Source: Maribacter caenipelagi (GTDB taxonomy: Bacteria > Bacteroidota > Bacteroidia > Flavobacteriales > Flavobacteriaceae). Taken from it: a stretch of 64,000 nt of DNA. The DNA lies in contig NZ_SNZW01000015.1 of NCBI RefSeq assembly GCF_004364175.1, forward strand, positions 134,326-198,325, written 5' to 3'. Made by a program: the position numbers and the translations under genes. The first letter of the stretch is position 1; each line of letters starts with the position of its first letter. Below are positions 4,501-24,353 of the stretch, piece by piece. Under the pieces are notes generated by a model. It was given only the letters and a program-made list of their open reading frames with translations. It was not told where the DNA came from and did not search any database.

Positions 4501-4630
4501 GATTTATAGTATTCTAAGTTGTTATAACTTTATTTAATTTATTTGGTTAAAGTTATAGCCCCCATTTTTATTTAAGGCAATTTTAACTGTCTTTTTAATA
4601 GTCACAAATCTCTGTTAACTCAATACGGTG

Positions 4631-4778
4631 GAAAGGACGGACATAGTGTACCAACCCCGCCGGATTAAAGTGAGCAACGCAATATTTAATGTAAATCCTT
4701 TTCTAACATGGTGTGAAACGATTTTGTAAGTGGTTCAAAAAATCCGTTTTCAGTGGTTCACTTTGACCGTTTTTTACA
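4631..4778. repeat. Solo IS21-like terminal repeat, copy 2
   Basis: This is the second copy of the repeat at 3508-3653, about 148 bases long and in the same orientation. On the minus strand it starts with TGTAAAAAACGG right after the 3' end of the lipoprotein gene at 4785-6146, seven bases past its stop codon. Same-orientation copies cannot be the two ends of one insertion sequence, so each looks like an orphan end left by separate insertions or deletions. Confidence 0.6.
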
Positions 4779-4784
4779 GGTGGT

Positions 4785-6146: not shown

Positions 6147-7788
6147 CTAAAATTTCTTTTTTTAGTTTATACGTTGATTGACCTTTTCTGAAATAAATTT
6201 CATTGTTCAACTGAAAAAAATGACGCAATTCACGGGCAAAACCTAGATTATGTTCAACCCCTGAAACTGTATAGTCAGCTTCGAAATCTCTGAAACCACC
6301 TCGTGATCCATTGGACGTAATTAAAGTATTTTGATACACCATATAGATTTCATTGTCAAGGGTGTCTAAACTAAGATTGGGGTTAAGGCGATGACTTGTG
6401 TTATTATAGTTCATGTAAAGAGCCCCTTCATGCAGAAAACCACCCCAATATCCGGTTTCCCGATTAGCGAAATGCCCTGACATAGTGCCATCAACCAACT
6501 CAGACCAAGTTGAAGTAATTTCATCGAACCGCCAATCTTCTTCCACATCGTAGAGATTGTAGTTGTCATCCACGGCTTCCCCGTTTAAGACATAGAGTTT
6601 TTCTTGAAAATGCAGCATAAAAGTAGCTTGTCTATTGTCTGAAAATGGAAGTGGAATAAGCTCTTCTTCTAAGGTATTCAAGTTTATTCGTATCAATATT
6701 CTAGAGCTATCATCGGGATTCTTATAAGCATAAAGAAATCCGTCATTATTATACACCACATTATTTATATAACCAAGATAACTACTTCCAGGCACCTCCT
6801 CCCATTCTTGACTATCAGGTGTAAACTCATAGAGTGCAACCTTAGTATCGTAAAGGCCTTCATTTTTCCAAAAGTAAGCATAGGCTTTATTGTTGTGCAC
6901 TATTGGTGGATGTGTAATATACCCTGGCTCATAGTCTACAATAATACCATCATTTTTTATTTCCCAATTTCCGTTCAATATAATTTCATAGTCCGCCATT
7001 TTATAAACTACTTCGTTTATAAAAAAATCTTTATAAGGACCTGATGGATAACTTGATCTAATAGTATGTGTAACACCGCTGAAAATGCTCGATTCTTTTC
7101 CATCCACTAGTATCGATGTGAACTTACCATCAGGGTTGAAACCAGACCCTTCTAAAACCAATTCTTGGCCTGCCCAAAAGTCATCAGGCACATTCGTAAT
7201 TATTGGTTTAGTTAATTTTAATGACTCCTCTGAAACTACCTTTTGAAACTGTGCTGTCAATTCAACTACAAGATTGCTTTTAGCTAGCGCGGTTGGTATA
7301 TATACTTCCACCTCATTATGACTTGCCCTGATTACACTAGCGCTCTCACCATTAATTGAGACTTTTACAAAATCTCTATCTTTGTCAAAATTCTCGCCCT
7401 GAATAACTAAAACTTCCTGAAAAGAGATTTCTTGTTTATCGTAACCTTTAATGACAGGTTTTTTCAATATAAAAGTCTCTTCGAGAATATTTTCATTGGT
7501 TTTTAAGTCAACAATACGTACTGTTGGGTTATACCTCTCAATACTTCTTGGCACTTTGACCTTTATTTTTTTATCCGTCAAGTAGTTTATGTAAGACTCT
7601 TCATTATCAAAGAAGACTTGTAGTTTTCCCTGTTCAAAATTTTGACCGTCAATTACGATTTCTTCTTCTATTAATGCACTAGGTAAACTAGTGAATGAAG
7701 GTTTGGATATAGCGTTCGAATTTTCTTCTTTAGTACAGGATAAGAGTAATAGAACACTAACAATTATGGATAAGCTAATTTTATTCAT
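6133..7788 (-). CDS. IPT/TIG-domain lipoprotein with kelch-like C-terminal half
   Basis: The 551-residue protein starts with a lipoprotein signal (MNKISLSIIVSVLLLLSC, lipobox LLSC). The N-terminal half shows three Ig-like IPT/TIG-type repeats, each with a characteristic strand: EEEIVIDGQNFEQGKLQVFF, FQEVLVIQGENFDKDRDFVK and AGQELVLEGSGFNPDGK (about residues 40-240). The C-terminal half has kelch-like strands (KVALYEFTPDSQEWEEVPG, DEITSTWSELVDGT). Such proteins usually sit on the cell surface and bind polysaccharide or protein, but no substrate can be named. The gene lies 27 bases after the larger lipoprotein gene and overlaps the next one, so the three probably form one operon. Confidence 0.7.
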   Translation of the reverse strand: MNKISLSIIVSVLLLLSCTKEENSNAISKPSFTSLPSALIEEEIVIDGQNFEQGKLQVFFDNEESYINYLTDKKIKVKVPRSIERYNPTVRIVDLKTNENILEETFILKKPVIKGYDKQEISFQEVLVIQGENFDKDRDFVKVSINGESASVIRASHNEVEVYIPTALAKSNLVVELTAQFQKVVSEESLKLTKPIITNVPDDFWAGQELVLEGSGFNPDGKFTSILVDGKESSIFSGVTHTIRSSYPSGPYKDFFINEVVYKMADYEIILNGNWEIKNDGIIVDYEPGYITHPPIVHNNKAYAYFWKNEGLYDTKVALYEFTPDSQEWEEVPGSSYLGYINNVVYNNDGFLYAYKNPDDSSRILIRINLNTLEEELIPLPFSDNRQATFMLHFQEKLYVLNGEAVDDNYNLYDVEEDWRFDEITSTWSELVDGTMSGHFANRETGYWGGFLHEGALYMNYNNTSHRLNPNLSLDTLDNEIYMVYQNTLITSNGSRGGFRDFEADYTVSGVEHNLGFARELRHFFQLNNEIYFRKGQSTYKLKKEILDEIL

Positions 7789-7815: not shown

Positions 7816-10632
7816 TTAATAGGGGTCATTGGCAATATCATATCTAATCATTTCATAATTGTCATAACCGTATATTCCCGCACCAAGACCAAAATATAAT
7901 TTGTTATTTAAACCGTAAACAGAATGATTTATTAGTGTAAGAAGCATCGGGGTTTTCTCTGTCCATGTTCTTGTGCTAAAATCATAGGCGAAAATATACT
8001 GCTCTGGTGCCTCATTACCCCTACCCCCGCTATAGTAAAGGATATTGTTATACATATAAAGATTACTGTGATAATGAAAGGTATATAAACCTTTAGGAAA
8101 CCCTATATTTTCCCAAGAATCGTTTACCATATCGTACATCATTATATTATCATCAAGTACATCTAAAAATAAGAAACCATCTTTTTGGTAAATATTGGAT
8201 GCCATAGGACTTTGTAAGGTGTTTTTTAAAACAGGCTGATTTACAACGACATAAGTGTTTAAATTTAAATCATACTTATAGAGTATTAAATCGCTGAAAT
8301 TTTCTGGTCTTTTCATCCATAGATAGGCATATTCTCCGTAAACGGTACCCCTTACAGCGGAAAGTCCATCTAAAATAATAAGACCAACCTCCTTCCATGT
8401 TCTGGATTGCATGTTATAGACTAAAAACTTATCAAAATAAAACACATAAATATCTTCACCCACTACGGAGATAGTATAGTTAACAATGGTATAGTTACTT
8501 AAGTTTGGTATGTTGCTTTCAAAAAGACTCCAACTTAATGTTGATTGATTGAATTCATAAATGCCACCATAGGTTAATGCATACAGCTTGCCATTATGCT
8601 CAAAACTTTTACTGAATTTATTGAGCTCTGACGGCTGTTGATATTCCTCTAATTTTTCATATGGCTCAATACCGTTAATGAAACCTATAGACCTGTTCTC
8701 ATCACCATAGCTCATAATAATTTCATCATTGCCCGTTAATGGAATAAAGTACGGAAGGATAATTTGTGCCTGATTTTTCGTGGCATTTATCAAGGTACAG
8801 GAAATGCCATTTAATTTGAAACCAAATTTTGATACTTGATCTAAATTAGTCCCCTCCATGGTATATACATCCTTTCTTGTTCCGGTACCAGATTGTATTT
8901 CGGTCACGGAAACATCTCCCAAAACAAAAGAAACTTCATTAGATTCTTGCCCACCTGTTACTACTTTAATAGTATGGGTTCCAGGAAGAAGATTACTAGG
9001 AACAGGAAATGCAATACTTGTATTATACAAGGAATAATTTGAATTTCCGGAAAATGGAAACTCTTCACCATCTACATAAACTGTGCTAACATCCCTGTAG
9101 CCAAAATCCAATCCATTTAAACCAATTTGATTGCCGTGGTAATAAATATCGCTGGATATACTTTTAATTTCTGGTGAATAAATTTTAAAGTTTTTTTCCG
9201 CCACACCATAGGCGGTTGTTAATTCAATCTTTAATTCTCCTTGACCGTCAAATTCAAATTTGGGATATCTGGCTGCAGTGGCATCTAACCATTTAGTTAA
9301 TGATATTGTTAAATTGCCTTGAGAATCGATGGGCTCAAAATCATATGAATTATTTGAACATTCGGCCCTACCAATTTTTATATTTGATTTAAAACCTAAA
9401 AAATATTTGGTTTTTATGGTTATATTCTCGTCATAGAGATGATATAAGTCTTTATCTACGGATATAATTTGCGGTGGTAGCATTGTAATTTTCTCAGAAA
9501 GCTCAAACTCACCTGTTTTAACAATTAGTGTTGGGTTTTCATCTTCAAAATAAGTATCTATTACTATTTTAATTTCTGTTTTAGAGGAGTCTATAATGTG
9601 TTGTTGCCTACCCCCTACAAATACCTCTAAAGGTTTATTTTTTTGCAAAAGATAGTCACCTTTAACCGTTAAGGTATCTAAAAAGCCTGTTTCTCTATTA
9701 TCCAATTCATCTATCACAGGAATAGTACTTTGAAAATAATTTTGTTTTTCAATAGCTCTATCTAGAACCTGAATCCTTAAATCCAATAAACCCACAGGAA
9801 AATCCTCGGCTACTTTTACCTCAATCTTATCTGTGTAATTATTGTTTATGAGAACCAATTCATAATCATCAATCCAAACTTTTGAAAACTCTGAATGAAA
9901 GTTTTTCCCATAAATGAAAAAGCTTTCTCCGAGATACGCTTCCTTTGGAGAAATAGAATCAAAAACAGGTGGGGTCATAATAAAATTAGGTTCTAATGAA
10001 GTACTTGTTCCGCAGGTTTCAAGAGCAGCGCCTAATTCGGAAACTTGCATATTTGGAAGAATAACAGCTTTCACCAAACTATCTGATTCAAATATGATTT
10101 TCTGGTTGGCGCCATTTAGACTAAAACCATTTTTAATCGTTTCGGAGGAAGAACAAAAATTTTTCCCTATAAAACTGATGGTATCGTTAACAAATGCCTG
10201 CTTGGGATACCAGTCCAATAATTCAAAGTCAATTTCAACTATACTTTCAAAATTCAAGGTATCCCCGTAAAAAAATGTCCCCTTTGCATATATGTAGGGA
10301 TAAATGTCATAATTCTGTCCTCTTTCTAAGCCTGAACTAACAGTAGTTATAAAAGTAGTCTCACTCAGTTCTCCTAATACTATTTTATCATAGAATTCAT
10401 TGTTTTTCAAAACAAAAACACCATGGTCATTAACTGTTGCCCCAGAGGTACTTTCAACTAAAACCTTTGTTTCCGTAGTGATGCCATTTACCGAGTTTTC
10501 TAAAATTTTAAACGAAGAAATTTCAATTTTGTCAAGTTGGTTCGGTGGTATATCATTGTCCTCAGATTCTTCGGTACAAGCTACTATAGAAATAGTGATG
10601 ATTAGGGCAAATAAGAAGGTTTTTTTAAGCAC
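7816..10632 (-). CDS. Large multi-IPT/TIG lipoprotein with kelch-like C-terminus
   Basis: The 938-residue protein opens with a lipoprotein signal (LKKTFLFALIITISIVAC, lipobox IVAC). The codon at the start of the frame is GTG at 10630-10632; no ATG lies near, and the signal peptide begins right there. Several IPT/TIG-like modules follow, marked by VNDTISFIGKNFCSS, LGESFFIYGKNFHSEFSKVW, LDTLTVKGDYLLQ, GNQIGLNGLDFGYRDVSTVY and DVYTMEGTNLDQVSKFGF. The last 270 residues are kelch-like, with strands such as NLYMYNNILYYSGGRGN and FAYDFSTRTWTEKTPM. It is the first gene of a three-lipoprotein operon. Its function is unknown; surface binding is an inference from the architecture. Confidence 0.7.
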   Translation of the reverse strand: MLKKTFLFALIITISIVACTEESEDNDIPPNQLDKIEISSFKILENSVNGITTETKVLVESTSGATVNDHGVFVLKNNEFYDKIVLGELSETTFITTVSSGLERGQNYDIYPYIYAKGTFFYGDTLNFESIVEIDFELLDWYPKQAFVNDTISFIGKNFCSSSETIKNGFSLNGANQKIIFESDSLVKAVILPNMQVSELGAALETCGTSTSLEPNFIMTPPVFDSISPKEAYLGESFFIYGKNFHSEFSKVWIDDYELVLINNNYTDKIEVKVAEDFPVGLLDLRIQVLDRAIEKQNYFQSTIPVIDELDNRETGFLDTLTVKGDYLLQKNKPLEVFVGGRQQHIIDSSKTEIKIVIDTYFEDENPTLIVKTGEFELSEKITMLPPQIISVDKDLYHLYDENITIKTKYFLGFKSNIKIGRAECSNNSYDFEPIDSQGNLTISLTKWLDATAARYPKFEFDGQGELKIELTTAYGVAEKNFKIYSPEIKSISSDIYYHGNQIGLNGLDFGYRDVSTVYVDGEEFPFSGNSNYSLYNTSIAFPVPSNLLPGTHTIKVVTGGQESNEVSFVLGDVSVTEIQSGTGTRKDVYTMEGTNLDQVSKFGFKLNGISCTLINATKNQAQIILPYFIPLTGNDEIIMSYGDENRSIGFINGIEPYEKLEEYQQPSELNKFSKSFEHNGKLYALTYGGIYEFNQSTLSWSLFESNIPNLSNYTIVNYTISVVGEDIYVFYFDKFLVYNMQSRTWKEVGLIILDGLSAVRGTVYGEYAYLWMKRPENFSDLILYKYDLNLNTYVVVNQPVLKNTLQSPMASNIYQKDGFLFLDVLDDNIMMYDMVNDSWENIGFPKGLYTFHYHSNLYMYNNILYYSGGRGNEAPEQYIFAYDFSTRTWTEKTPMLLTLINHSVYGLNNKLYFGLGAGIYGYDNYEMIRYDIANDPY

Positions 10633-10835
10633 TTAAGTAGGATTTATCTTTCAAACTTACTGGATTTTGAAATTTTATTCTAATTACTCAGTTCAAGAGC
10701 TTAAATTTTCTTTAAAATCCCGTTCTGCTAATTATTCAATTCAATAAAAACGAATTCTTTAGCCAAATATTATGAAATATAAATCATGTATTAATAAATA
10801 ATATCAATCTTTTCAGTAACCTAAAAAATTCAAAA

Positions 10836-12092
10836 TTATCTATTTTCTAGAAATGCACTGGCCATCAGCTCCTGTTCTCCTCTGGAAATTCCAATTTCTC
10901 CTGCAATCTTTTTCCATTGCCCCACCGATCCTAGAACTTCTTTGATAATACTATCCATTTGCTCATTATTCAATCGAAAGTACTCCCCTACGCTTATGGC
11001 TAATTCCACATCCAAAGCATTGTTTTCCATATCAATATTTAATGCTAGACCATCTTTATCTATTGACGGGTTAATATCATATGCAGGAGAAAGCACCCAC
11101 CCTTTAGACGTTAGAATAAAACCATGATTCCGCAAATGGTCATCGGTATTGGAAACCGCAATATTAAATATAATCCTTCGCCATAGTTGACTTAGGTTTT
11201 CATCGATGTTAGCACCATTGTTTTGAATAAACTCTGCCATATCCAAGTAACTTGCAGGGTTATCTCGTATCGTATCTTCGTTATTACCCGTCATGGTCAT
11301 TGCGGATGAAAAGTGTATCCGCTCCTCTCTTACTCTATCAAAACGCTGCGTAAAAAACGTATGGTACTTCCCAACAACCTTTTCAATTCTTGATGGTGCC
11401 ATATCAATACCACAATTTATCGCCAATAGAAACACTAGAAATTCCCATGCTCCTTTATCTATATTGTCATTCTTGGAAGGAAACTTCGCAATCCATAAAT
11501 TTCCATGTTCATCTAAAATATTAGCCTTAGGCCTTGCACCACCTAAAGAAGATCCAGGAGCCATAAGAAGGGCCAACCATTTTTTTGTTTCTTCATTATC
11601 GGTATCATTCTCAAAATTCTTAGCTGCCTCCTGTAACTGCCGAACCGAAGACCATGGTGGTGTTGGTGAGTATTCGTTGTCATCTAAAAATGGCCCATCT
11701 GGATTTAATTTAAAGCGCAATGCTCCCATCCGACTTTCATCGTACACCCCAAGTAAAAAATCTATTTCGTATAAGGTTGATGCTCTTTCATTCTTTTCCT
11801 TTGCTTCTTGGGCCGCCCGTCTTTTCATCAAGGTTTTTCCCCAAGTATCTGGCATACTATCTAAGAAGACCCCAAAGTTCTCCTTATTATTGGGGTATTG
11901 TGGACCAGAATAGAATTGGATATCTGGATCCAATAGCAGTTGGTGTTCTGATTTTATCCAATTGCTATCGTATTCAAAACTAAATGCTTTCTTCCCTTTG
12001 GCATAATGAGCTGCGAGAACGCCAATCAACTTAGCCTCTGGCATTCCTTGCCAATGCGCATAAACGTATATGTCTAATTTTCCAGTTGCCAT
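10836..12092 (-). CDS. hipA: HipA-type Ser/Thr kinase toxin
   Basis: HipA phosphorylates translation-related proteins and slows growth unless held by HipB. The 418-residue protein has the N-terminal HipA domain (FGVFLDSMPDTWGKTLMKRR) and the kinase core: a P-loop-like SSLGGARPKA (about 182-191), the catalytic loop SNTDDHLRNHGF (about 314-325) and the metal-binding YDINPS (about 338-343). Family length is about 440, so it is full length, and all key residues are present. I chose the ATG at 12090-12092 (MATGKLD); the open frame also extends two codons to a TTG. It starts 7 bases after the hipB stop. Several hipA-like kinases act in phage defence as well as persistence, and this one sits in a defence-rich element. 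Confidence 0.9.
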   Translation of the reverse strand: MATGKLDIYVYAHWQGMPEAKLIGVLAAHYAKGKKAFSFEYDSNWIKSEHQLLLDPDIQFYSGPQYPNNKENFGVFLDSMPDTWGKTLMKRRAAQEAKEKNERASTLYEIDFLLGVYDESRMGALRFKLNPDGPFLDDNEYSPTPPWSSVRQLQEAAKNFENDTDNEETKKWLALLMAPGSSLGGARPKANILDEHGNLWIAKFPSKNDNIDKGAWEFLVFLLAINCGIDMAPSRIEKVVGKYHTFFTQRFDRVREERIHFSSAMTMTGNNEDTIRDNPASYLDMAEFIQNNGANIDENLSQLWRRIIFNIAVSNTDDHLRNHGFILTSKGWVLSPAYDINPSIDKDGLALNIDMENNALDVELAISVGEYFRLNNEQMDSIIKEVLGSVGQWKKIAGEIGISRGEQELMASAFLENR

Positions 12093-12099
12093 TTCCAAA

Positions 12100-12387
12100 T
12101 TATAACAGTTCTAAATCTTGTAGTTTTCTTCCAAATTCATCATCGGCAGCTAGTTTTAGGAAATCATCTTGTAACCCTAAAACCCGAAATACATTAAAGT
12201 AGGAACCAATACCAACGCTCGGGTCGCCTTTTTCTATAAGGTATAGTGTGCTCCTAACAATATCAGCCCTTTCAGAAACTTGAATCGTTGTAAGTTTTCT
12301 TCTCTTCCGAGCTAATTTTATGTTTTCTCCCATTCGCTCTAAAACCTTTATATGCTTGGGAAACAGCGTTTGTTTTCTTTTAGCCAT
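12100..12387 (-). CDS. hipB: HipB-type antitoxin and operon repressor
   Basis: This 95-residue Xre-type DNA-binding protein has its helix-turn-helix at about residues 20-50 (LARKRRKLTTIQVSERADIV and RSTLYLIEKGDPS). HipB proteins bind HipA and repress the shared promoter. I chose the ATG at 12385-12387 (MAKRKQT); a TTG two codons upstream is possible. It is the first gene of a two-gene operon with hipA. A perfect 16-bp inverted repeat with promoter elements lies directly upstream, which fits autoregulation. Confidence 0.9.
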   Translation of the reverse strand: MAKRKQTLFPKHIKVLERMGENIKLARKRRKLTTIQVSERADIVRSTLYLIEKGDPSVGIGSYFNVFRVLGLQDDFLKLAADDEFGRKLQDLELL

Positions 12388-12392
12388 AACCA

Positions 12393-12445
12393 AATGATTG
12401 TTATTTCATGCAAATATACCTATTTTGATTGAAATAACAATCATT
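12393..12445 (-). promoter_or_regulatory. hipBA promoter with perfect inverted-repeat operator
   Basis: The sequence AATGATTGTTATTTCA at 12393-12408 is repeated in inverted form at 12430-12445, 16 of 16 bases, with 21 bases between. On the minus strand the region holds a Bacteroidota-type promoter: TTG, 19 bases, then TATATTTG (12411-12418), fitting TTG-N19-TAnnTTTG. The -7 box lies between the two half-sites and the -33 TTG falls inside the distal one, so a repressor bound here would block transcription. The start codon at 12387 is just downstream. Confidence 0.8.
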
Positions 12446-13059: not shown

Positions 13060-13929
13060 CTATAGTTCCATTCCTAATCCTATTGTTTTTTTGATGCTGA
13101 TTTTAATGACCTTCTTAGCGAGGGTCACTGCCAAGTTTGGTGCTACGCTTACGGTCTTGCCTAAAAGATCCAATGTGTTCTCCTTCACTATTCGTTGTGT
13201 AACCGCTTTATCGAATTCGATTCGTTGCGCTATTCTTCCCATCGACATGGAACGGTGTACTTCACTCCCCTTCAGATTATGTCCTTTATATTCAAAGCGG
13301 AAACCTTGCAACTGATTTGACTTGTTGATGCTGGGAATCACTTCTACCTTATTCTGTTTCATGTATTTTAGATATTGGTCAAAATCCTTGGGCTTCATTT
13401 CGGAGATTACCGTTTCATGGATTTGTTTGATTTCCTCACGTATATTTTTGACTTCATTTAACTTTTCTTGTTGCACCTCTCTAACTGTAGTCAGACCCAT
13501 TTGCTGAGCCACTTTTTCGGCTGCCTGTTGGCTTCGTTTTCCAACATAATTGTCTTTATAGGCTTTTCCATCAAACCCGATGCGATTGACATATAAATGG
13601 ATATGAATATGTACTTTGTCATGATGCACAAATGCAATCGCCTGTCGCTCCTGTAATTTCATTTCCTTGACGAATCTTAGGGTAATTTCAGCTAGCTGTT
13701 TGTCCTTTAAATCGCGACCATCTTCAATCGTGGGACTAAGCACAAAACTCAAGGTGTTCTTTTTACATCTGTGATTTTGTGCTTGTATGATGCTGAACTC
13801 TTGTGTAATCTCCTTTGGGTTATCTCCTGCGAGATGTTCTCGATAGACCACTTTTGCTTCTTTTTCGGCATCCCATCCGTAACCCATTGAAGCTCCCGTA
13901 TGTGATATCGATTTTCCCATGCCTATCAT
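13060..13929 (-). CDS. Relaxase (MobB-type mobilization nuclease)
   Basis: The relaxase nicks one strand at oriT and pilots it during transfer. The 289-residue protein starts with MGKSISHTGASMGYGWD, typical of the Bacteroidota MobB group, and has the metal-binding three-histidine motif in HHDKVHIHIHLYVNR (HIHIH at 107-111). The presumed catalytic tyrosine is in the N-terminal part (Tyr17 or Tyr29). Its start overlaps the MobC stop as ATGA. An alternative start is the ATG three codons on. It is somewhat short, with only a modest tail after the relaxase domain. Frame and motifs look intact. Confidence 0.88.
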   Translation of the reverse strand: MIGMGKSISHTGASMGYGWDAEKEAKVVYREHLAGDNPKEITQEFSIIQAQNHRCKKNTLSFVLSPTIEDGRDLKDKQLAEITLRFVKEMKLQERQAIAFVHHDKVHIHIHLYVNRIGFDGKAYKDNYVGKRSQQAAEKVAQQMGLTTVREVQQEKLNEVKNIREEIKQIHETVISEMKPKDFDQYLKYMKQNKVEVIPSINKSNQLQGFRFEYKGHNLKGSEVHRSMSMGRIAQRIEFDKAVTQRIVKENTLDLLGKTVSVAPNLAVTLAKKVIKISIKKTIGLGMEL

Positions 13930-14222
13930 TTTCTGAAATTTAAAAGATGTTGTCGTATTTCAGTTGCCAATTGAGTGACTTCATCGGCCAATTTCGGATC
14001 ACGTTTTCGGAACATATTGCCGATGAGTTTAAAATTGTTCTGATACTTGGCCAGCATTTTATACGTGGTTATCTGTTCCTCCGAAAGCCGTTCGATTATC
14101 CGGTCATTGAAAGCAGCACGACGGCAATATTCACTAATGGAAAGTCCGCTCTTGTGGGCCTTGACCCTGAGCAGTTTCTTTTCATAAATGGAACATCGAA
14201 ATTGTACGAACTCCTTTTTCAT
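13926..14222 (-). CDS. MobC-like relaxosome accessory protein
   Basis: The 98-residue protein has an N-terminal ribbon-helix-helix pattern (VQFRCSIYEKKLLRVKAHKS followed by GLSISEYCRRAAF) and a helical C-terminus. MobC proteins bind near the nick site and help the relaxase open oriT. It overlaps the relaxase gene by four bases and lies just downstream of the candidate oriT region at 14324-14378, an order usual for mobilizable elements. Confidence 0.82.
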   Translation of the reverse strand: MKKEFVQFRCSIYEKKLLRVKAHKSGLSISEYCRRAAFNDRIIERLSEEQITTYKMLAKYQNNFKLIGNMFRKRDPKLADEVTQLATEIRQHLLNFRK

Positions 14223-15664: not shown

Positions 15665-15890
15665 GCTAAGGTTTTTGTGGGTAGGGAGAAGAAAGGTCAA
15701 GCGGTCTTTCGCCGCTTGTGCTTTTGTGCGGCTACGAGGAGGTCGGAAAAACCGGAACGGAAAGACTTCTCTTGCGGACCAGCGAAGCGTGTCTGCAGGG
15801 GGAGGATTTGAGTGGAAGGGATTGCCGACTTCCGCAGGGGCTTGGCAGGATTATGAATGTGCCCGCTTCACTCGCATATTGTTTTGCCTA
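15665..15890. other. GC-rich structured island, possible non-coding RNA
   Basis: In the 339-base gap between the membrane protein and the reverse transcriptase, this stretch is strikingly GC-rich against an AT-rich background. It can form hairpins: AAGCGG (15699-15704) with CCGCTT (15712-15717), and near 15772-15797 TGCGGAC with GTCTGCA. A 92-codon plus-strand frame (15675-15953) crosses it, but its composition is dominated by Gly, Arg and Ser and it runs into the 3' end of the reverse transcriptase gene, so coding is doubtful. Nothing known is recognised. It may be a structured RNA or part of the element's replication or transfer region. Confidence 0.4.
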
Positions 15891-15915: not shown

Positions 15916-16953
15916 CTAGTAAAGCTCCTTATACAAACCAGCAAGATATTTGATATAACTTCTTAATTTCATGTCAGATGGGTTCAAATAAAGACCAAAG
16001 CTAATCTTTCCCATCAGTTGGTTTAAATACAAACTCCCACTCAATTTAGCCCTTTCCATATGCGATTCCAAACCAAATTTTTTGATGTAATAAATTTCTT
16101 GTCTTATCAGTTTTCTAGTTTCTTTATCCAATTGAGGTTTGGAATTTACTATTATACCAGTTACAATTTGCCTTTGACTAGATAGCATCAACCTAGTTTT
16201 TTCTTTATTTAGTTCAAAGCCATTTTTCTCTAATAAAGCATTCACAAACTCATATAATGATTCTTCCTCAAAATCACCTGAAAAAGTCAAGTCGTCTGCA
16301 TACCTAGTATATCTCACCTTTAATTCTTTGCAGAAAATGGCAATTGAATTATCAATATCTTTTAAAATTAAATTAGAGATATATGGACTGGTTGGAGCTC
16401 CCTGAGGTAAGGTATTTTTAAGACAACATAATTTAGCTAAGTAATTTGATAACTCAATAGAATAGCCTGTTTCTATAAAAATTTTTTCAATTTGGTTGAT
16501 ATTAATAGATGGGAAAAAGTTCTTAATATCGATTGTAAAAACTTTTTTCTGGGCTTTATGGAATCTTATATTTTGTTTTAACCCTCTTTTTTTGACATAA
16601 GCTTTTGCATATACACTTGGCTCTATTTCTTCCAGTATGTTTGCAAGAATCCAATGTTGAATTGCCTTTAGATTAGGAAGAGGTTCCTTTATTTTTCGGA
16701 AATCACCATTCTTTTTCAATACCTTATGATATCTATAGTACGCCTCCGAATGTTTAGAAACTACAGCGGCTTGAATGATATAATTTTTCTCAAACCCAAC
16801 CAACTTACTTAAATGGGTTAAATTGTAGATAATAGGTAAACCATTTTCGTATATAGGCCTTGCATAATTTATACATTTAACAACGTTCTCTTCGGAGTAA
16901 CCCAAATTTTCCGCGTTAACCCTAAATTTTTTCGCATACACCTCAAAACTCAT
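15916..16953 (-). CDS. Retron reverse transcriptase
   Basis: The retron RT copies part of its cognate RNA into a branched RNA-DNA (msDNA) that controls an effector. The 345-residue protein has RT motif A (FTIDIKNFFPSI, catalytic Asp142), the LPQGAPTSPYISNL block (182-195), motif C YADD (218-221, followed by LTFSG) and the retron-typical VTG (264-266, in RQIVTGIIVN). Length and N-terminal KNGDFRKIKEP are normal for retron RTs, and no maturase or endonuclease domain is present, excluding a group II intron. A foldable RNA lies immediately upstream (16959-17107), then winged-helix and PRTase genes, all co-directional. All catalytic residues are present. Confidence 0.93.
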   Translation of the reverse strand: MSFEVYAKKFRVNAENLGYSEENVVKCINYARPIYENGLPIIYNLTHLSKLVGFEKNYIIQAAVVSKHSEAYYRYHKVLKKNGDFRKIKEPLPNLKAIQHWILANILEEIEPSVYAKAYVKKRGLKQNIRFHKAQKKVFTIDIKNFFPSININQIEKIFIETGYSIELSNYLAKLCCLKNTLPQGAPTSPYISNLILKDIDNSIAIFCKELKVRYTRYADDLTFSGDFEEESLYEFVNALLEKNGFELNKEKTRLMLSSQRQIVTGIIVNSKPQLDKETRKLIRQEIYYIKKFGLESHMERAKLSGSLYLNQLMGKISFGLYLNPSDMKLRSYIKYLAGLYKELY

Positions 16954-16958
16954 AACTA

Positions 16959-17107
16959 CTTAAATCTCAAATGGGACCCGAAGGTCCCAGTATTTTGGAA
17001 GGCCGAATCAAATGCGACGACTCTGGAGGAGTATTTGATTCGGAACTGCTCTGAAATTAAATTCCCTATACAGATGGTACGACTCGTACATCCATCGTAA
17101 ATTTAAG
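16959..17107 (-). ncRNA. Predicted retron msr-msd RNA
   Basis: The non-coding gap before the RT gene folds as expected of a retron RNA. The minus-strand 5' end CTTAAATTT (17099-17107, a1) pairs with the 3' end AGATTTAAG (16959-16967, a2) over 9 bp with one G-U pair. Between them are a hairpin at 17073-17096 (GATG/CATC outer and GTACG/CGTAC inner stem), an 11-bp perfect stem at 17003-17013 and 17033-17043 enclosing a further small hairpin, and a 7-bp stem with a TTCG-type loop at 16972-16989. The first is a likely msr stem and the long one a likely msd stem. A G beside a1 (AAGC) could be the branching residue. The exact ends are inferred. Confidence 0.7.
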
Positions 17108-17123
17108 CTTTTTTTAATTGAAT

Positions 17124-17450
17124 TCAAAAATTCAGTTCGTTTTCAGAAGGTATAAATATGGTATCAGAATTAAAGATTTCTTGGATTTTACTTGATAATT
17201 TAGGACTAACTACTTTGCCACTATGTTTGTAGTTTAATTCTTCACTTAGTTTATTTCTTACTTCCAACCCTTGTTCAGTAAGACCTAAAATGCTATCTGC
17301 AAATTCTGCATTACCATTTTTTATTTCACCTTTTATGAAGTCTTTTATTTGAAAATAACTATAGCCTAATCTACGGAATTCGTCTATATCTCCATCATTT
17401 TCAATAATGGTCAACAATAAAAACCTTACTTGATTAGATATTTCCTCCAT
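17124..17450 (-). CDS. Winged-helix protein of the retron module
   Basis: The 108-residue protein has a compact winged-helix pattern: helices around VRFLLLTIIENDGDIDEFRR and SYFQIKDFIKGEIKNGNAEF, then a wing ending in SILGLTEQGLEVRNKL, a common winged-helix signature. Type III retrons pair an RT with a PRTase-like protein and a small winged-helix protein, as I recall the retron classification, and this gene occupies that slot. It probably binds the msDNA or links it to the PRTase. It starts 6 bases after the PRTase gene ends and sits 17 bases before the predicted RNA. The fold is seen; the role is inferred. Confidence 0.7.
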   Translation of the reverse strand: MEEISNQVRFLLLTIIENDGDIDEFRRLGYSYFQIKDFIKGEIKNGNAEFADSILGLTEQGLEVRNKLSEELNYKHSGKVVSPKLSSKIQEIFNSDTIFIPSENELNF

Positions 17451-17456
17451 ATTTGT

Positions 17457-18401
17457 CTATTTATTATAGGCTTTTCTTCTAGGAAAAGGCGCTGCAAGAC
17501 TTCTTGTTTCATGCCAAAAAATAGGTAATGTATTATTCGGAGATTTATTCATAATTGAGACCAGAGCTTCTGACTTTTTATAACCTAAACTTAAATCAGT
17601 CACACATTTAATTGATTCTTCCATCATCTCCACTTTTTTAATATTCTCATTTGCCAAAGCTATCGGGTAATAGTCGCTAATACATCTTTCTCTTAAAATA
17701 GATTGAAAAACATTTACCTTATGTTTTTTTCTAATAGCTTCTACACCAATTTTTTGAGAAATAAGTGATATTAGTATTGTATTCTTGGAGTTGAATTTTT
17801 TAGTTTTAAAATATTGGCTTAGTATGTTATTCGCAGTATCTCCTGAACCAATAAAATCATCAACTAAAATTAACAAATCCTTTTTTGAATTAAAAATACT
17901 TTTAAATCGAGCATAATTTTCGGGAAAAATAAATTTATCACTATGCTCTAAATCCCTGTACTCAATCTCGACTATAGAAAGAACCCTTTCACCACTTTTG
18001 TTCTTAGGCCTAACTGCCTTAGGCTTTTTAAATATAAATTTTAAGTAAGACCAAAGCTTCTTAAGAACATTTTCACCCCTATATTCCTGTTTGGGTCGAA
18101 TCTCTAGTTCAACTAGGGGAATAATATAAATTTTTTTTGCATTGGTAAGATATGCCTTATCTACTTTGTCATATGCCTCGCTAAACAGCTTATAAATCTC
18201 GGTTATTCCAATTCTATCAAACCTATCCGAGAGTTCCAGAAAAAGGGGTCTTGTACTATCTGGTATTCTTGTAAGTCTATCAATATATTTATTATAAAGT
18301 GACGTCTTCATCTTTTTTTCTGGCTCAACCTCCCAGCCCTTACCTTCAAAAAGCTCATCCACCTTTAAAATATAGGATGCACTTAATTTTTTAAATTGCA
18401 T
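17457..18401 (-). CDS. PRTase-like effector of the retron module
   Basis: The 314-residue protein carries a phosphoribosyltransferase-type PRPP-binding motif, LLILVDDFIGSGDTANNI (about 176-193), where the two acidic residues and the following Gly-Ser-Gly-Asp-Thr loop correspond to the family signature. The rest (N-terminal helical part, then a conserved-looking EIEYRDLEHSDKFIFPENYA) does not match a biosynthetic PRTase. This class is known as an effector in type III retrons and may act on nucleotides or their glycosidic bonds. It lies directly after a Qat cassette with a 96-base gap and overlaps no gene. Whether it serves the retron alone or also replaces the missing Qat nuclease cannot be told from sequence. 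Confidence 0.75.
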   Translation of the reverse strand: MQFKKLSASYILKVDELFEGKGWEVEPEKKMKTSLYNKYIDRLTRIPDSTRPLFLELSDRFDRIGITEIYKLFSEAYDKVDKAYLTNAKKIYIIPLVELEIRPKQEYRGENVLKKLWSYLKFIFKKPKAVRPKNKSGERVLSIVEIEYRDLEHSDKFIFPENYARFKSIFNSKKDLLILVDDFIGSGDTANNILSQYFKTKKFNSKNTILISLISQKIGVEAIRKKHKVNVFQSILRERCISDYYPIALANENIKKVEMMEESIKCVTDLSLGYKKSEALVSIMNKSPNNTLPIFWHETRSLAAPFPRRKAYNK

Positions 18402-18497
18402 TCATAATACTTTTATTGCTAAACTAATATAATCATAGTTTATAATACATTCAATATGCTAGACACTTCTATCACAAATTATTTTTATAACAACTTC

Positions 18498-19820
18498 TTA
18501 GGATTGATTCATAAAGTTCCTAACCTCTTTTAACCCCCTTTTATACATATTGACATATTTTCTTATTTCGAATTCTGAAATATCCATATAACCAGATTTT
18601 TGAAAAGCTAATCTTATTTTATCTTTTTTAGAATATCTCTTAATTGCAATCTTAAATGCATTAAAATCATCATACCTATGATTTGAGCCAATAACATTCT
18701 TGACATAATTTGTAGCATCATCTTTATTTATTAAATACATAGAAGACCTTCTAATTATACACGGTACGCAATGACCACATTGTCTTTCTTTTTCACCTTT
18801 CCATTGTTGGTAGTATCCTGGCTTTGAACAAGAAAGTGTTTTGTTAATGTTTTCAGAAACAAATTTTGGCATTTTAGTTTTTGCAAACATCTCTCCTTTG
18901 GTCATAAATCTATAAGGATTAATAATCCTATTATTGATTCCTACCATTTCAAATATTTCATTTAGAGAAGATATATATTTTGGATGCGTAGTTTTTGTGC
19001 TGTGACTACCTCCTCTTGCTGGAGTTAAAGGTAAATTCAATGAAATTAATCCGTTTTCGGGGATAATCACTTCTGTCTTATCACTTGAGGAGTTCGCTAC
19101 AAGAAGAGCTAAAGAAAGAAATAGTATTGAGCGCGCTCTTTGAGTTCTTTCTCCTAAAAGAACATCATTTTTGCGAGCTTGTACAAAGAAATAATAAGGT
19201 AAAATTTCTTTATCTACTACTTCATTCTGTAATAAATTTACCAGCTCTTTTTGAGTAGTCAATTCTCCTGAATTTCCTCCCTTATGATGTGATATAGTGG
19301 CTAAGCTATTTTTATTTGACATTATATCAGAAATACCAATAAATGAGTCCATTCCTCCAGAAAATAAACAAACTTTATCAGTACGAAATTCTGATATTGT
19401 AAAACTTGGAAACGGCTTTTTACACTTTCTAAAATTTAATATCCATTTATCTCCACTTAAAAAAGAAAGTGTTCTCTCAAACTGCTGTTTAGAGCTATTC
19501 CATTTTTCTAGGTTATAGACGGGAATATTCAATTCGATATATCTGCTCCAACCATAATGCCCAAATTTTTCTCTATTTGCAGCTTGGTCTATTGCATAGG
19601 CAGCCATTGAGATATTAGCAAAGTCGATTGCTAAACTATTTGGACATAATTTAAAATTCTCTTTACTGGAAAGAAAATTAAAAATATTATGTCTAACAAT
19701 AGATTCCCTTAATTTTGAATCTTTCGGATTAGTAATAATAGAATCTAGATAAAAACAATGTTCATTAGCAATTGAATATTTATCTGATTTATTTTCTTTT
19801 AAAATAACTGATACTTTCAT
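18498..19820 (-). CDS. qatC: QatC, QueC-like ATP pyrophosphatase of the Qat defence system
   Basis: QueC turns carboxy-deazaguanine into a nitrile for queuosine; QatC proteins reuse this chemistry in phage defence. The 440-residue protein has an N-terminal extension (about 1-148), the PP-loop ATP-binding motif LFSGGMDS (152-159) and four zinc-ligand cysteines (Cys331 in CSKPGYY, and Cys348, 351 and 354 in CGHCVPC), as in QueC. It is longer than QueC (about 230), as expected for the defence branch. It starts 2 bases after the qatB stop. The usual fourth gene, a TatD nuclease, does not follow. Confidence 0.88.
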   Translation of the reverse strand: MKVSVILKENKSDKYSIANEHCFYLDSIITNPKDSKLRESIVRHNIFNFLSSKENFKLCPNSLAIDFANISMAAYAIDQAANREKFGHYGWSRYIELNIPVYNLEKWNSSKQQFERTLSFLSGDKWILNFRKCKKPFPSFTISEFRTDKVCLFSGGMDSFIGISDIMSNKNSLATISHHKGGNSGELTTQKELVNLLQNEVVDKEILPYYFFVQARKNDVLLGERTQRARSILFLSLALLVANSSSDKTEVIIPENGLISLNLPLTPARGGSHSTKTTHPKYISSLNEIFEMVGINNRIINPYRFMTKGEMFAKTKMPKFVSENINKTLSCSKPGYYQQWKGEKERQCGHCVPCIIRRSSMYLINKDDATNYVKNVIGSNHRYDDFNAFKIAIKRYSKKDKIRLAFQKSGYMDISEFEIRKYVNMYKRGLKEVRNFMNQS

Positions 19821-19822
19821 AT

Positions 19823-20641
19823 TTAGATAAGGGAATAAGCGTCTTCAAATATTTTGTTAATAATTCTGTTTTTTTTCTTCAAATTCATATTTGAAAAATT
19901 TGATTCTGAGAACTTTAAATTTACTTCAGCATCGATAAAATATTCAATTTGTGTCTCAATTCCTTTAACTTCATTAGATGATAAATCTTTTTCTTCTAAA
20001 GCCGTTGTAATTTCTATTGAAATCCTTTCAAAAATATATTTAGAAATATAAAATTCTAAATATTCAGAAATCTTATTGTCATCCAAAGCATTTATTTCAT
20101 CTGGATTATCGGTGTAATCATTATACAGCTTATTTATTGTTTCAACAGCAGCATAAGATGCAGCACTTCCTTCGTCCGTACCATCTAAATCAATAAAAAT
20201 CTCCGTAAGCTTATTTATTGAACCTTCAGCATTTAATGAAGAAATATCACCGATATTATATTTTTCTAATGTCTCTTCAAACCCTTTTTTCGAAATAGAT
20301 TCAAGAAAATCTACTAAAATTATAGCTCCCTTTTTTCCACTTTGAGCAGAATTAGCTAAACTTTTTTTTCCTCCCGAAGCCTTTCGATATTTTGATGTGA
20401 ATTTTTTAAAATTACTTTTACTTGTTTCTTTTGTAAAGGCTGTAAAGCTTCGTCTAACATCACTCCAATTCATTTTATCTGAGTGCTCCTCATCTTTTGC
20501 ATTTTCGTCACCATTTTCCTCCTGGTCATTATTATCAGAATTTGCTGCTGGAGATGGTCCATCAAAATTAGAATCACTTACCCATTCTGGAATTGGATTT
20601 GGAGTCCCTTTCGGCCCTCTATTTGGTTTGGATGTTCCCAT
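19823..20641 (-). CDS. qatB: QatB of the Qat defence system
   Basis: The 272-residue protein opens with MGTSKPNRGPKGTPNPIPEW, a Gly-Thr-Ser start and Pro-rich leader typical of QatB. A long acidic linker (about 28-58) and a helical domain follow; the helix-rich C-terminus ends in KNRIINKIFEDAYSLI. QatB has no known enzymatic motif. It lies between the ATPase (3-base gap) and the QueC-like gene (2-base gap), exactly the qatA-qatB-qatC order. If the initiator Met is removed, a free N-terminal glycine is exposed. Related QueC-like defence enzymes have been proposed to attach a deazaguanine to such a glycine (my recollection, not checked). Confidence 0.85.
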   Translation of the reverse strand: MGTSKPNRGPKGTPNPIPEWVSDSNFDGPSPAANSDNNDQEENGDENAKDEEHSDKMNWSDVRRSFTAFTKETSKSNFKKFTSKYRKASGGKKSLANSAQSGKKGAIILVDFLESISKKGFEETLEKYNIGDISSLNAEGSINKLTEIFIDLDGTDEGSAASYAAVETINKLYNDYTDNPDEINALDDNKISEYLEFYISKYIFERISIEITTALEEKDLSSNEVKGIETQIEYFIDAEVNLKFSESNFSNMNLKKKNRIINKIFEDAYSLI

Positions 20642-20644
20642 ATA

Positions 20645-22432
20645 TTATAATTTTGACTTGGCTATTTTGGACAACATAGAAATGTTAGAATTTGACCATT
20701 TGAAAATAATTTTCTTTGCTGTCGGCTCAAATGGAGTTCCATCAGTTAATAAAAGTAAATTTGGCACATTAGCAGGCATAATTATACTTTCGGAGGCATT
20801 ATCCATAAAAGCACAATATTCTGATATTAATATTGGATGTTTTTGACAAAACTTTAAAAGAAGTATGTTAAGTTTTCCTCTTTCTTTGATAACCTCTTCA
20901 ATACTAATTCTATTCGATATCTCTGAAAAAATTGACGTTATATCAGTTGATGACAGGTTTAAGCTACCCTTTAATGCTTTAGTTTGCAACGCACCTCCTT
21001 TTAGTAAGTTTTCAAGTATTTCTCTAGCTTCTAGCGAGATTCTTTTATTGGATAATAATTCAAAATTCAAATTTCCTCTTGTAAAATAAAAGTAGTTTTT
21101 AAGGTCAATCTCACCAAGCTTTGGTTCTGTGATAACCCATTTTTTCAACCACGTATCACTCATCCATACATCAAATGAACTATCAATATTTTCTTTTGCT
21201 TCATCAATATTTTCAACACTTTTAAGGACATTTTTATCTTTCTCATATGAAGCCTTCACAAGTTGGTTAAAAGATTCCGTTTTAAAATATTCCAGTAACA
21301 TCAATTTCGCAAGAACATTCTTCTTCAAGTCTATCCCTTTTGATTTAGCCATATTTAGTCTAATCATCAACATATTCAAAAATCGCTTGCATTGTCTTGG
21401 ATTGCCGCTTAATATTGAAACCAATATTGAATTTATTTGTTTAGAAAGAATTAAATCTTGTTTTAAACCTTCAGGCACAATACTTAAGTAATCGGAAATA
21501 TTTTCTGAATTTAATTTTGAAGTAATAATATCATCCGATGAATTATTAAATGCTTTATAGATTAATTCTTCGAATTCGGTAGATTTAAGATGTAATTTTG
21601 AGAAAAGAAAATTTGTATATGTTTCGAATTCAGGCTCACTCATCGACGGAATTCGAATAGGGAAATGAATCAATTTTTCAATATAATCCTTACTGACATC
21701 ATAATCAGTTGAAGGTAATTCAGGAAACTTCTTTTTGACAGCGTAATTAATTAGGCGCTCATCTGCAGATATTATAAATATACTTTTGTCTACAAAAAGA
21801 AATAATTTAATGGCTTCAAGTGTGGATATTATTGTGTCCGGATTGCATCTGTCTAAATCATCAATTAATACTATTACTCTATTGATATTCGTTTCTTTTA
21901 TCAAAGTTTCAAAATCATTATGAAACTCTCTTATTCCTTTTTCAATTATATCTTGATTTTCATCTTGTATTTCTTTTACATAATCTTCTATATTCAAATC
22001 AGATATCTCTTTTAATGCATTTGCATAGTCAAAATCCGTATTACTTGCCATATAAGTATTAAATCCTATTTGACCAGTTTTTGTCAATACCTTAAGCCAT
22101 TTAACTTTTTTAACTAAACGCCCAATATACTTTAAGGCTTTATTGTCCCAAGTTCTACTCTTAATTAATTCATCGACAAGAGTACTTAATAATGCTATTT
22201 TTGCATCTTCATAACCTTCAAATAGCCAACCATTAAATTTTATTATTAAGTTGTCCTCCTTTGTGTTTTCAATTTCAATCATCTTCATCAAACTTGATTT
22301 TCCGCTTCCCCAATCTCCATACACTCCTATAGTCGAAGGGACTAAATTGTCATTATTAATTATAAGATTAATTGAATCAGTTAAATATTTGTAATCAATT
22401 AAGTCTTGATTAGTTTCGTTATCGTTCCACAT
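20645..22432 (-). CDS. qatA: QatA, KAP-family P-loop ATPase of the Qat defence system
   Basis: The 595-residue protein has a Walker A (GDWGSGKSS, 39-47) and a Walker B (VIVLIDDLDRC, 186-196) of the KAP NTPase type, with a helical C-terminal region (about 280-595) that resembles sensor or regulatory parts of the family. KAP ATPases usually have membrane segments inserted between the two motifs; here that insert (about 95-180) is mostly hydrophilic, so the protein is probably cytoplasmic. QatA is thought to sense infection and drive the system by ATP hydrolysis. It is the first gene of the defence block. No clear promoter box is seen upstream. Confidence 0.88.
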   Translation of the reverse strand: MWNDNETNQDLIDYKYLTDSINLIINNDNLVPSTIGVYGDWGSGKSSLMKMIEIENTKEDNLIIKFNGWLFEGYEDAKIALLSTLVDELIKSRTWDNKALKYIGRLVKKVKWLKVLTKTGQIGFNTYMASNTDFDYANALKEISDLNIEDYVKEIQDENQDIIEKGIREFHNDFETLIKETNINRVIVLIDDLDRCNPDTIISTLEAIKLFLFVDKSIFIISADERLINYAVKKKFPELPSTDYDVSKDYIEKLIHFPIRIPSMSEPEFETYTNFLFSKLHLKSTEFEELIYKAFNNSSDDIITSKLNSENISDYLSIVPEGLKQDLILSKQINSILVSILSGNPRQCKRFLNMLMIRLNMAKSKGIDLKKNVLAKLMLLEYFKTESFNQLVKASYEKDKNVLKSVENIDEAKENIDSSFDVWMSDTWLKKWVITEPKLGEIDLKNYFYFTRGNLNFELLSNKRISLEAREILENLLKGGALQTKALKGSLNLSSTDITSIFSEISNRISIEEVIKERGKLNILLLKFCQKHPILISEYCAFMDNASESIIMPANVPNLLLLTDGTPFEPTAKKIIFKWSNSNISMLSKIAKSKL

Positions 22433-22805: not shown

Positions 22806-24053
22806 CTAAGAAACTTCCTCAGCTCTATAATTCTTATGTTTCATATGCATCATCAAATTCTGCATATCCTCCCCCACCTTCTTCTCCACAACCCTTGCAT
22901 AGATTTGAGTGGTCGAAAGTTTAGTATGCCCCAAAAGTTTTGAAACAGTCTCAATCGGCACACCATTTGATAGTGTAATGGCAGTAGCAAAGGTGTGCCG
23001 CGCTACATGAAAGGTTACCTTTTTACGAATGCCGCAGGCGGCGACAATATCTCTTAAAGTGCGGTTAATCATTTGATTGCTGTAAATAGGTAGTAACCTT
23101 CCGTTTTCAAACAGATTAACATTGTCGTTATATTTATCTATAATTTCCTTGGCCTTTGGTAACAAAGGAATCTTCAAGGGCTCGTCTGTCTTTGTTCTTT
23201 TAGTGTACAACCAATCGTTACCGTCCATGCCTTTTACCAAATGGTCGGCTTTTAATTCGCGAACGTCGATATAAGACAAGCCTGTATAACAGGCAAAAAC
23301 GAACAGGTCTTTTATACGCTGGGTACTTAGCAGTTTAAACGTGGTTTCTTCAATGAGCTGCAATTCTCTCTCTGTCAAAAACTGGCGTTCTGTTTTTTCA
23401 AATCGCAATTTGAAATTGATAAAAGGGTCTTTCTCTAACCACTCCAACTTTACGGCCAATCTTGACATCTTTTTTAGCCGCTCCATATGCTTCATAGTCC
23501 CGTTATTCGCACAACCCATTCTCGTGGCCGGCTTGTACTTTCTTATGTACTGTTCGTAATCAACAATAAATGCGTAGTTTAATTTTTTAAGAGGTATATC
23601 CTTAATACCCTTTTCTTCTTCCATGAATTCTTTGAGGCAACGTTCTGTAGTGTGGTAGTTCTTCATCGTACCTTTTCGTAGAACAGTATCCATAGAAGTA
23701 TTGTGATACGTAATCAAATCGAGTAGTGTCTTGCCCTTTTCATCTTCCCCTAAATATCTTGCTTTTATTCCCGCAGAAGTAATGTCAACTTCCTCTTGTA
23801 AAAGTTGGCGATGCGCTTCATGCAGTCCTGTAAAAACTTGGTCTAAATACTTGTTCAGCGAGATAACGTACTTAGAAAATCCTTTACCTCTTTTACGTTT
23901 TTCGTCCCAAAGGGACACCTGCAATTCCCGATTTAAACTGAATTCGGCTCTTTTACCGTCGACGGTGACCCGAGCATAGACCTTAATAGTATCTACTTTT
24001 GAAGTAAATTTTCTAATGACAAATACGACTGATAATCTACTGTTTTCTAACAT
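22806..24053 (-). CDS. Tyrosine recombinase (integrase), CTnDOT-like
   Basis: The integrase recombines element and tRNA att sites. The 415-residue protein has an arm-binding domain (about 1-110), core-binding domain (about 110-220) and a complete catalytic domain: HVARH with His349 and Arg352, His376 in LLGHTKLSTTQIYAR and nucleophile Tyr385. The first catalytic arginine is replaced by Ser260 (YTGLSYIDV), as known for the CTnDOT integrase group, which compensates with another arginine. It starts 226 bases from the att site at the tRNA, an arrangement typical of tRNA-targeting elements. The truncated integrase at 859-1617 is a relative but not a copy. Confidence 0.93.
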   Translation of the reverse strand: MLENSRLSVVFVIRKFTSKVDTIKVYARVTVDGKRAEFSLNRELQVSLWDEKRKRGKGFSKYVISLNKYLDQVFTGLHEAHRQLLQEEVDITSAGIKARYLGEDEKGKTLLDLITYHNTSMDTVLRKGTMKNYHTTERCLKEFMEEEKGIKDIPLKKLNYAFIVDYEQYIRKYKPATRMGCANNGTMKHMERLKKMSRLAVKLEWLEKDPFINFKLRFEKTERQFLTERELQLIEETTFKLLSTQRIKDLFVFACYTGLSYIDVRELKADHLVKGMDGNDWLYTKRTKTDEPLKIPLLPKAKEIIDKYNDNVNLFENGRLLPIYSNQMINRTLRDIVAACGIRKKVTFHVARHTFATAITLSNGVPIETVSKLLGHTKLSTTQIYARVVEKKVGEDMQNLMMHMKHKNYRAEEVS

Positions 24054-24253: not shown

Positions 24254-24276
24254 CATGCAACTATTTGAAAATAGTT

Positions 24277-24343
<67 letters not shown>

Positions 24344-24353
<10 letters not shown>

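Follow-up and report, generated by a model that had tools for sequence, protein, structure and literature searches.

A QatABC operon without QatD lies next to an apparently complete type III-A retron on a likely mobilizable island of Maribacter caenipelagi

It was found that Maribacter caenipelagi carries a qatABC operon lacking qatD directly next to the genes of a type III-A retron. The region lies in a stretch of 64,000 nucleotides, called the window here (the whole stretch of DNA that was analysed; positions 134,326 to 198,325 of the forward strand of contig NZ_SNZW01000015.1, assembly GCF_004364175.1). With a probability of about 85%, the two sets of genes are separate anti-phage modules that a mobilizable island carries as adjacent cargo, namely a Qat system from a QatD-less clade and a type III-A retron. 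The gene content, the failure to find QatD, the grouping of such loci in one clade, the conserved motifs, and the constraint on the genes were observed directly, and the retron probably stands beside Qat as an independent neighbour rather than as a substitute for QatD. An earlier sequence-only reading of this DNA had proposed that Qat needs QatD and that the locus is either a Qat remnant beside a complete retron or a hybrid in which the retron's phosphoribosyltransferase (PRTase) acts as the effector. The description of QatABC without QatD beside an apparently complete III-A retron has held, while the need for QatD, the remnant, and the PRTase effector have found no support.

The six genes of the block are all present at positions 15916-22432 on the minus strand, as that reading had said, and the names given to them are borne out by models from PADLOC, Pfam, and NCBIfam. 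The qatA gene (20645..22432) encodes a KAP-family P-loop NTPase of 595 residues (PADLOC QatA, E = 3.9e-125; Pfam KAP_NTPase, 5.3e-44). It is followed by qatB (19823..20641; 272 residues; PADLOC QatB, 7.4e-30), whose N-terminal MGTS is kept in the alignment, and by qatC (18498..19820; PADLOC QatC, 1.5e-102), which encodes a QueC-like protein of 440 residues. The order and the strand of the three genes are those of the usual Qat arrangement. The SGGxDS loop and four Cys residues of QatC are invariant across the alignments made here, and a profile including the window QatC matches the solved QatC chains 9vlk and 9zee. QatC is also the sole Qat protein named by NCBIfam in the window, above the cut-off (397 versus 280 bits).

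The lack of QatD noticed earlier was borne out: no TatD was found among the genes after qatC, and no QatD in the window. In the whole genome, the Pfam TatD family (PF01026) matches at two places, a full-length TatD gene at C1:775263 and a gene at C4:344166 that adjoins a UbiA-like gene (read by eye). With a profile built from 12 QatDs, the former scores 81 bits and the latter is not listed, whereas in two control genomes the true QatDs reach 363-370 bits and the second TatDs 85-95 bits. Thus the recommended search for a qatD elsewhere in the genome returned an 81-bit TatD and no QatD. The assembly is an estimated 99.99% complete and, as far as it shows, QatD is absent rather than displaced.

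Is the lack of qatD common among QatABC loci? QatC proteins were collected from overlapping genome sets, each count including the present genome. The phylum set (395 genomes) gave 13 above the family cut-off and the class set (395) gave 7 at E <= 1e-60; the sets for the order (226), family (397), and genus (36) gave 4, 5, and 1, the last being that of the present genome. A scan of genomic contigs contributed the best 80 of 247 confirmed loci, a choice that leans to near relatives. The surroundings were annotated with profiles built from the loci themselves. Once duplicates (L106, L107, L108, L262, and L303) and loci missing any of the three genes had been removed, the count stood at 93 distinct QatABC loci, that is, 90 in a first set, minus L103, plus four added later. 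L103 was left out because its QatA match lies 6.8 kb away on the opposite strand and is not the operon's own; L067 and L120 were left out because QatA was not found, and both L120 and L103 start at a contig edge. Also left out were L075-L077, which hold divergent QatC-like proteins (three of the seven sub-cut-off proteins above 50 bits in the phylum search were fetched). The QatA match is short or split in six of the counted loci. In summary, qatD directly follows qatC in 87 of the 93 loci and is lacking in five; in the remaining one (L129), the contig ends 118 bases past qatC. In the 90-locus set, the gap between qatC and qatD ranges from -40 to +27 bases, except for larger overlaps in L102 and L125 that depend on the choice of start codon. 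None of 76 pattern matches to QatC in viral contigs was confirmed, and the QatC matches in 115 plasmid records were all below 60% identity.

Two kinds of excluded loci may be described here. L067 (positions 8359-11106; genome G070) has a QatB open reading frame (ORF) without the usual N-terminus, a QatC, and a QatD, with no QatA match in the preceding 8 kb; it is possibly a decaying system. The QatC-like proteins of L075, L076, and L077 are mostly larger (452-587 residues), lack QatA and QatB matches alongside, and could form a separate QueC-like branch.

The five QatD-less loci are the window, L083 (an Allomuricauda metagenome-assembled genome (MAG)), L084 (a Flavobacterium MAG), L085 (Aquimarina), and L069 (genome G359, of the same class as the window and of a different order). 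The latter four are the loci nearest to the window, with QatC identities of 57-70%; the next nearest, L086 (48%), has qatD. All five hold at least 7 kb of sequence beyond qatC. A tree was made by a quick method from QatA, QatB, and QatC together (35 rows, 1342 columns; the 36 nearest of the 90 loci less one short row). In this tree the five form one clade with a support of 100 by the Shimodaira-Hasegawa-like approximate likelihood ratio test (SH-aLRT), and with four qatD-bearing rows they make up the starred group of nine. L103 and L113 have long branches, that of L103 owing to the QatA match foreign to its operon. Since qatD is present in all other assessable loci, a single loss of qatD is the simplest account of the five, the direction of change being inferred. 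When a QatD profile was run against six genomes, four of the clade and the two controls, the four clade genomes gave just TatD matches of 41-89 bits, against 363-370 bits for true QatD.

The qatABC frames are open in all five loci, QatA measures 594-596 residues, and the MGTS of QatB and the loop and Cys residues of QatC are kept. For each of the three genes, the ten pairs of the five loci have proportions of replacement changes (pN) of 0.185-0.36 and of silent changes (pS) of 0.66-0.81; as the silent changes are near saturation, only the direction of the difference is used and no ratio is given. This is the pattern that purifying selection leaves. Six positions in QatA, QatB, and QatC with a residue conserved in 80% or more of 79 QatD-bearing loci are changed in each of the five QatD-less ones, and such changes might mark the loss of a contact with QatD; five of the six are mild. 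QatA of the clade has a 10-residue gap after residue 137 and several gaps of 3-4 residues. As a separate observation, residue 16 of QatB, in the N-terminal tail, is Pro in 5/5 QatD-less loci and Leu in 67/79 QatD-bearing loci, a change that is not mild.

These data bear on two readings of the Qat genes alone. That a deletion of qatD left a non-functional qatABC remnant would agree with the failure to find qatD in this genome and with the apparent transposase pieces (identified by eye) behind qatC in L069. However, the gene set has been kept in five loci (the window, the Allomuricauda, Flavobacterium, and Aquimarina records, and the genome of another order), with open frames, a steady QatA length, intact motifs, and constrained replacement sites. 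The remnant, one of the options of the earlier reading, was rejected on the open frames and the substitution pattern and is now highly improbable. It may instead be supposed that the QatD-less Qat recruits a housekeeping TatD nuclease whose gene lies at another place on the chromosome. A full-length TatD-family gene indeed exists at C1:775263, and all four of the searched clade genomes show one or more TatD-like matches scoring 80-89 bits; but TatD occurs in 14/14 control genomes as well, so its presence is uninformative, and in the accessible text of PMC13279940 the activity of QatBC against one phage needs no QatD. Recruitment of this kind is highly improbable too.

The retron begins 96 bases past qatC. 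Its first gene (17457..18401, minus strand) encodes a III-A PRTase-like protein of 314 residues with a DDFIGSGDT loop in the alignment (PADLOC PRTase_III-A, 1.6e-64; Pfam PRTase-CE, 1.6e-19), and the second (17124..17450, minus strand) a winged-helix (WH) protein of 108 residues (PADLOC WH_III-A, 4.7e-22). The last (15916..16953, minus strand) encodes a reverse transcriptase (RT) of 345 residues, for which RT_III-A is the best of 65 families in PADLOC (3.3e-140). The alignment shows the retron RT motifs YADD and VTG, and NIRFH at the NAxxH place. PADLOC models of the III-A type thus match all three proteins, in line with the type III-like set named by the sequence-only reading, and the gene order is the same as in the retron loci L078 and L079. 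From its sequence, the window retron is apparently a complete type III-A set.

A foldable RNA ahead of the RT gene, also part of that reading, was confirmed: the 170-base segment that separates the WH gene from the RT gene (16954..17123, minus strand) folds at -45 kcal/mol (z -3.3; none of 200 shuffles was as stable) into an outer stem, a long hairpin, and a short GC hairpin. This putative non-coding RNA (ncRNA) has short blocks in common with those of three related retrons, weak evidence when taken alone. Rfam gave no family at its threshold, and a plain alignment of the four ncRNAs gave only seven consensus pairs, one of them with a two-sided change. A motif pattern for the ncRNA matched the window once, at the ncRNA itself, but it also matched 26/100 shuffles, and its matches in 33 of 306 loci, many outside retrons, make it weak support. 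Behind the RT gene, the segment 15640-15900 has a G+C content of 50%, against 35% for the window; it contains a 21-base hairpin (15698-15718) and is present in a single copy in the genome.

Does the retron replace QatD? What lies downstream of qatC differs in all five QatD-less loci, and the retron is found in the window alone. L083 has nothing on the qatC strand in its remaining 7.2 kb, where only opposite-strand genes occur; L085 has opposite-strand genes and then transfer genes (by eye), and its Qat genes are also accompanied by an integrase match. Behind qatC of L084 (positions 4480-6451) lie a gene for a 268-residue protein and a candidate defence gene with DUF3644/PDC-S19. Profiles of the III-A-type PRTase, WH, and RT gave no match at the 92 other QatABC loci within 9 kb or the available stretch. 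The linkage of QatABC with a III-A retron was seen in 1/93 QatABC loci, the window itself. Conversely, the surroundings of related RTs, covered over about 4-20 kb, contained no Qat gene at any of 11 genomic or 80 viral-contig loci (the viral ones being the best 80 of 215); a III-A PRTase is present at 9/11 and 5/80 of these, respectively. Among 72,556 plasmid records, two matched the PRTase, both partially. The PRTase model matched in 101/198 genomes, five of them (including the window genome) at E < 1e-27; the rest, at 18-30 bits, were taken for ordinary PRTases. With no Qat genes at the 91 other RT loci and a retron at 1/93 QatABC loci, the retron appears to be a self-standing module found once beside QatABC.

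Two side observations concern these retrons. Sets of a III-A-like PRTase and RT occur in IMG/VR viral contigs (L163-L166 and L168), with at best 46% RT identity to the window. In L265, which has no Qat genes, a TatD-family gene (positions 1958-2719; 135 bits) lies about 6 kb from a III-A-type retron.

The idea that the retron PRTase and WH proteins have replaced QatD as the effector, so that Qat and retron make one system, draws on position, since the retron genes begin on the same strand at the usual place of qatD, and on the exchange of effectors among retrons reported in the accessible part of PMC12548924. Yet a retron is present in one of the five QatD-less loci and, within the available stretch, in none of the 87 QatD-bearing ones. 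The window retron comes with an RNA, an RT, and the customary partner genes of its own, just as retrons do at loci without Qat, and if qatD was lost before the five loci split, the retron was not the driver of the loss. Within the available stretches, no second PRTase-WH-RT set was seen after QatD-less QatABC, and the hybrid was rejected on these neighbour counts (1/93 QatABC loci); its chance of being true is minimal. There is an equally slim chance that, in this lineage, a freshly acquired retron has become co-transcribed and coupled with the QatD-less Qat as an early-stage composite system, in which sensing by multicopy single-stranded DNA (msDNA) or the PRTase takes the place of QatD.

Several points weigh against two separate modules with a QatD-less Qat clade. 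The 96-base spacer (18402..18497), whose length is exactly as first reported, and the common strand permit co-transcription of qatC and the retron; on the minus strand of the spacer, no terminator-like site and a single weak promoter-like match (9 of 12) were found. A retron further off would escape in the 22/90 loci that hold less than 5 kb past qatC. The TatD of one qatD-bearing locus, L141, scores 90 bits against at least 235 in the others, so that bit scores by themselves do not tell every QatD from other TatDs. The QatD-less loci number only five, the genome of L085 was outside the search for a distant QatD, and the tree comes from a quick method, with a root that serves the drawing alone and leaves loss and gain indistinguishable. 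QatA and QatB of the window are below the NCBIfam cut-offs (470 versus 600 and 86 versus 100 bits, respectively), which suggests that they are divergent family members.

Two separate modules would nonetheless fit what has been published. According to the accessible text of PMC13279940 (2026), defence against phage lambda-vir stays complete when the operon lacks qatA and qatD, contrary to the earlier claim that Qat needs QatD, but susceptibility to some other phages returns once both genes are lost. The same text proposes that QatC deazaguanylates the QatB N-terminus, mutation of Gly2 in the conserved MGTS start having abolished defence, and the available part of PMC13329287 agrees with this chemistry. 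QatABC as a natural system is in line with this sufficiency of QatB and QatC against some phages. In the window, QatC might modify the N-terminal glycine of QatB with a 7-deazaguanine group at the expense of ATP; the QatBC complex would then give defence, which the KAP NTPase QatA would widen or regulate, with no need for the QatD nuclease. The retron RT, for its part, would copy part of the ncRNA into msDNA, and the complex would keep a PRTase/WH toxin silent until interference by a phage releases it. All of this biochemistry, like the independence of the two modules, I infer. The accessible part of PMC12548924 describes PRTase/WH effectors for type III retrons; there, Retron-Bpu1 gave no defence in the panel tested and Retron-Ppe1 was not transformable into E. 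coli. In the literature covered, mostly without subscription papers and partly seen in excerpt, neither a Qat clade lacking QatD nor a pairing of Qat with a retron was found. In the parts available, the survey PMC10121019 lists both Qat and retrons and nothing more, and PMC10013915 reports, for one Tenacibaculum genome, qatA-qatD and a solitary retron RT without mention of adjacency.

Modular cargo on a mobile element would explain the Qat-retron pairing without joint function. The block sits between a tyrosine integrase gene (22806..24053, minus strand; Pfam Phage_integrase, 9e-17), next to a tRNA-Pro(ggg) gene (24279..24353, minus strand), and a relaxase gene (13060-13929; Pfam Relaxase, 3.4e-29) with a NikA-like mobilization gene (13926-14222; 1.7e-20), the pair spanning 13060..14222 on the minus strand. 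In three relatives (G427, G412, and G420), about 58-71 bases past the tRNA-Pro gene comes sequence that is found here about 20.5 kb ahead of the first base of the window; therefore, about 44.7 kb is extra here, with its edge at about 24275-24279. Another relative (G395) has a different element at this site, and the tRNA-Pro gene seems to be an integration hot spot. A search of the window for a repeat of the tRNA 3′ end matched only the tRNA itself, and a follow-up repeat search gave no clear pair.

Some further features of the island may be noted. In a genome of the same genus (L281, positions 18277-19500), the same tRNA-Pro is occupied by another element, which carries an integrase 52% identical and, by eye, metal-transport-like genes. 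In the window, genes for a HipA-like kinase and a small helix-turn-helix (HipB-like) protein (10836-12393, minus strand) adjoin the mobilization genes. A second integrase-like ORF of 252 residues (859-1617, minus strand) has arm and SAM-like domains, with no catalytic domain matched, which suggests a broken or tandem element.

What QatD contributes is put in question by deletion experiments, in which QatB and QatC dispense with this protein against some phages. The long divergence of a natural clade in the absence of QatD is evolutionary evidence for QatABC as a complete system, and the clade offers a ready comparison for finding which phages require QatD. Such loci could be overlooked or wrongly labelled by tools and surveys that require the full set of four Qat genes.

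Compared with known systems, the window shares with qatABCD the MGTS of QatB and the SGGxDS loop and four Cys residues of QatC. It differs in lacking QatD, and QatA of its clade is shorter (594-596 residues versus a median of 622 in QatD-bearing loci). Compared with type III-A retrons such as Retron-Bpu1 and Retron-Ppe1, as described in the accessible text of PMC12548924, the window has the same three genes and a structured RNA between the WH and RT genes; no type-defining difference is seen, and its sole oddity is the Qat neighbour. Retron-Sda1, described in the same text, has a III-A1-like RT beside HipA/DUF3037 and resembles the window in that a III-A-type RT adjoins another defence module. 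However, the PRTase and WH genes are missing in Retron-Sda1 and present in the window, where, by this comparison, nothing appears to have been replaced.

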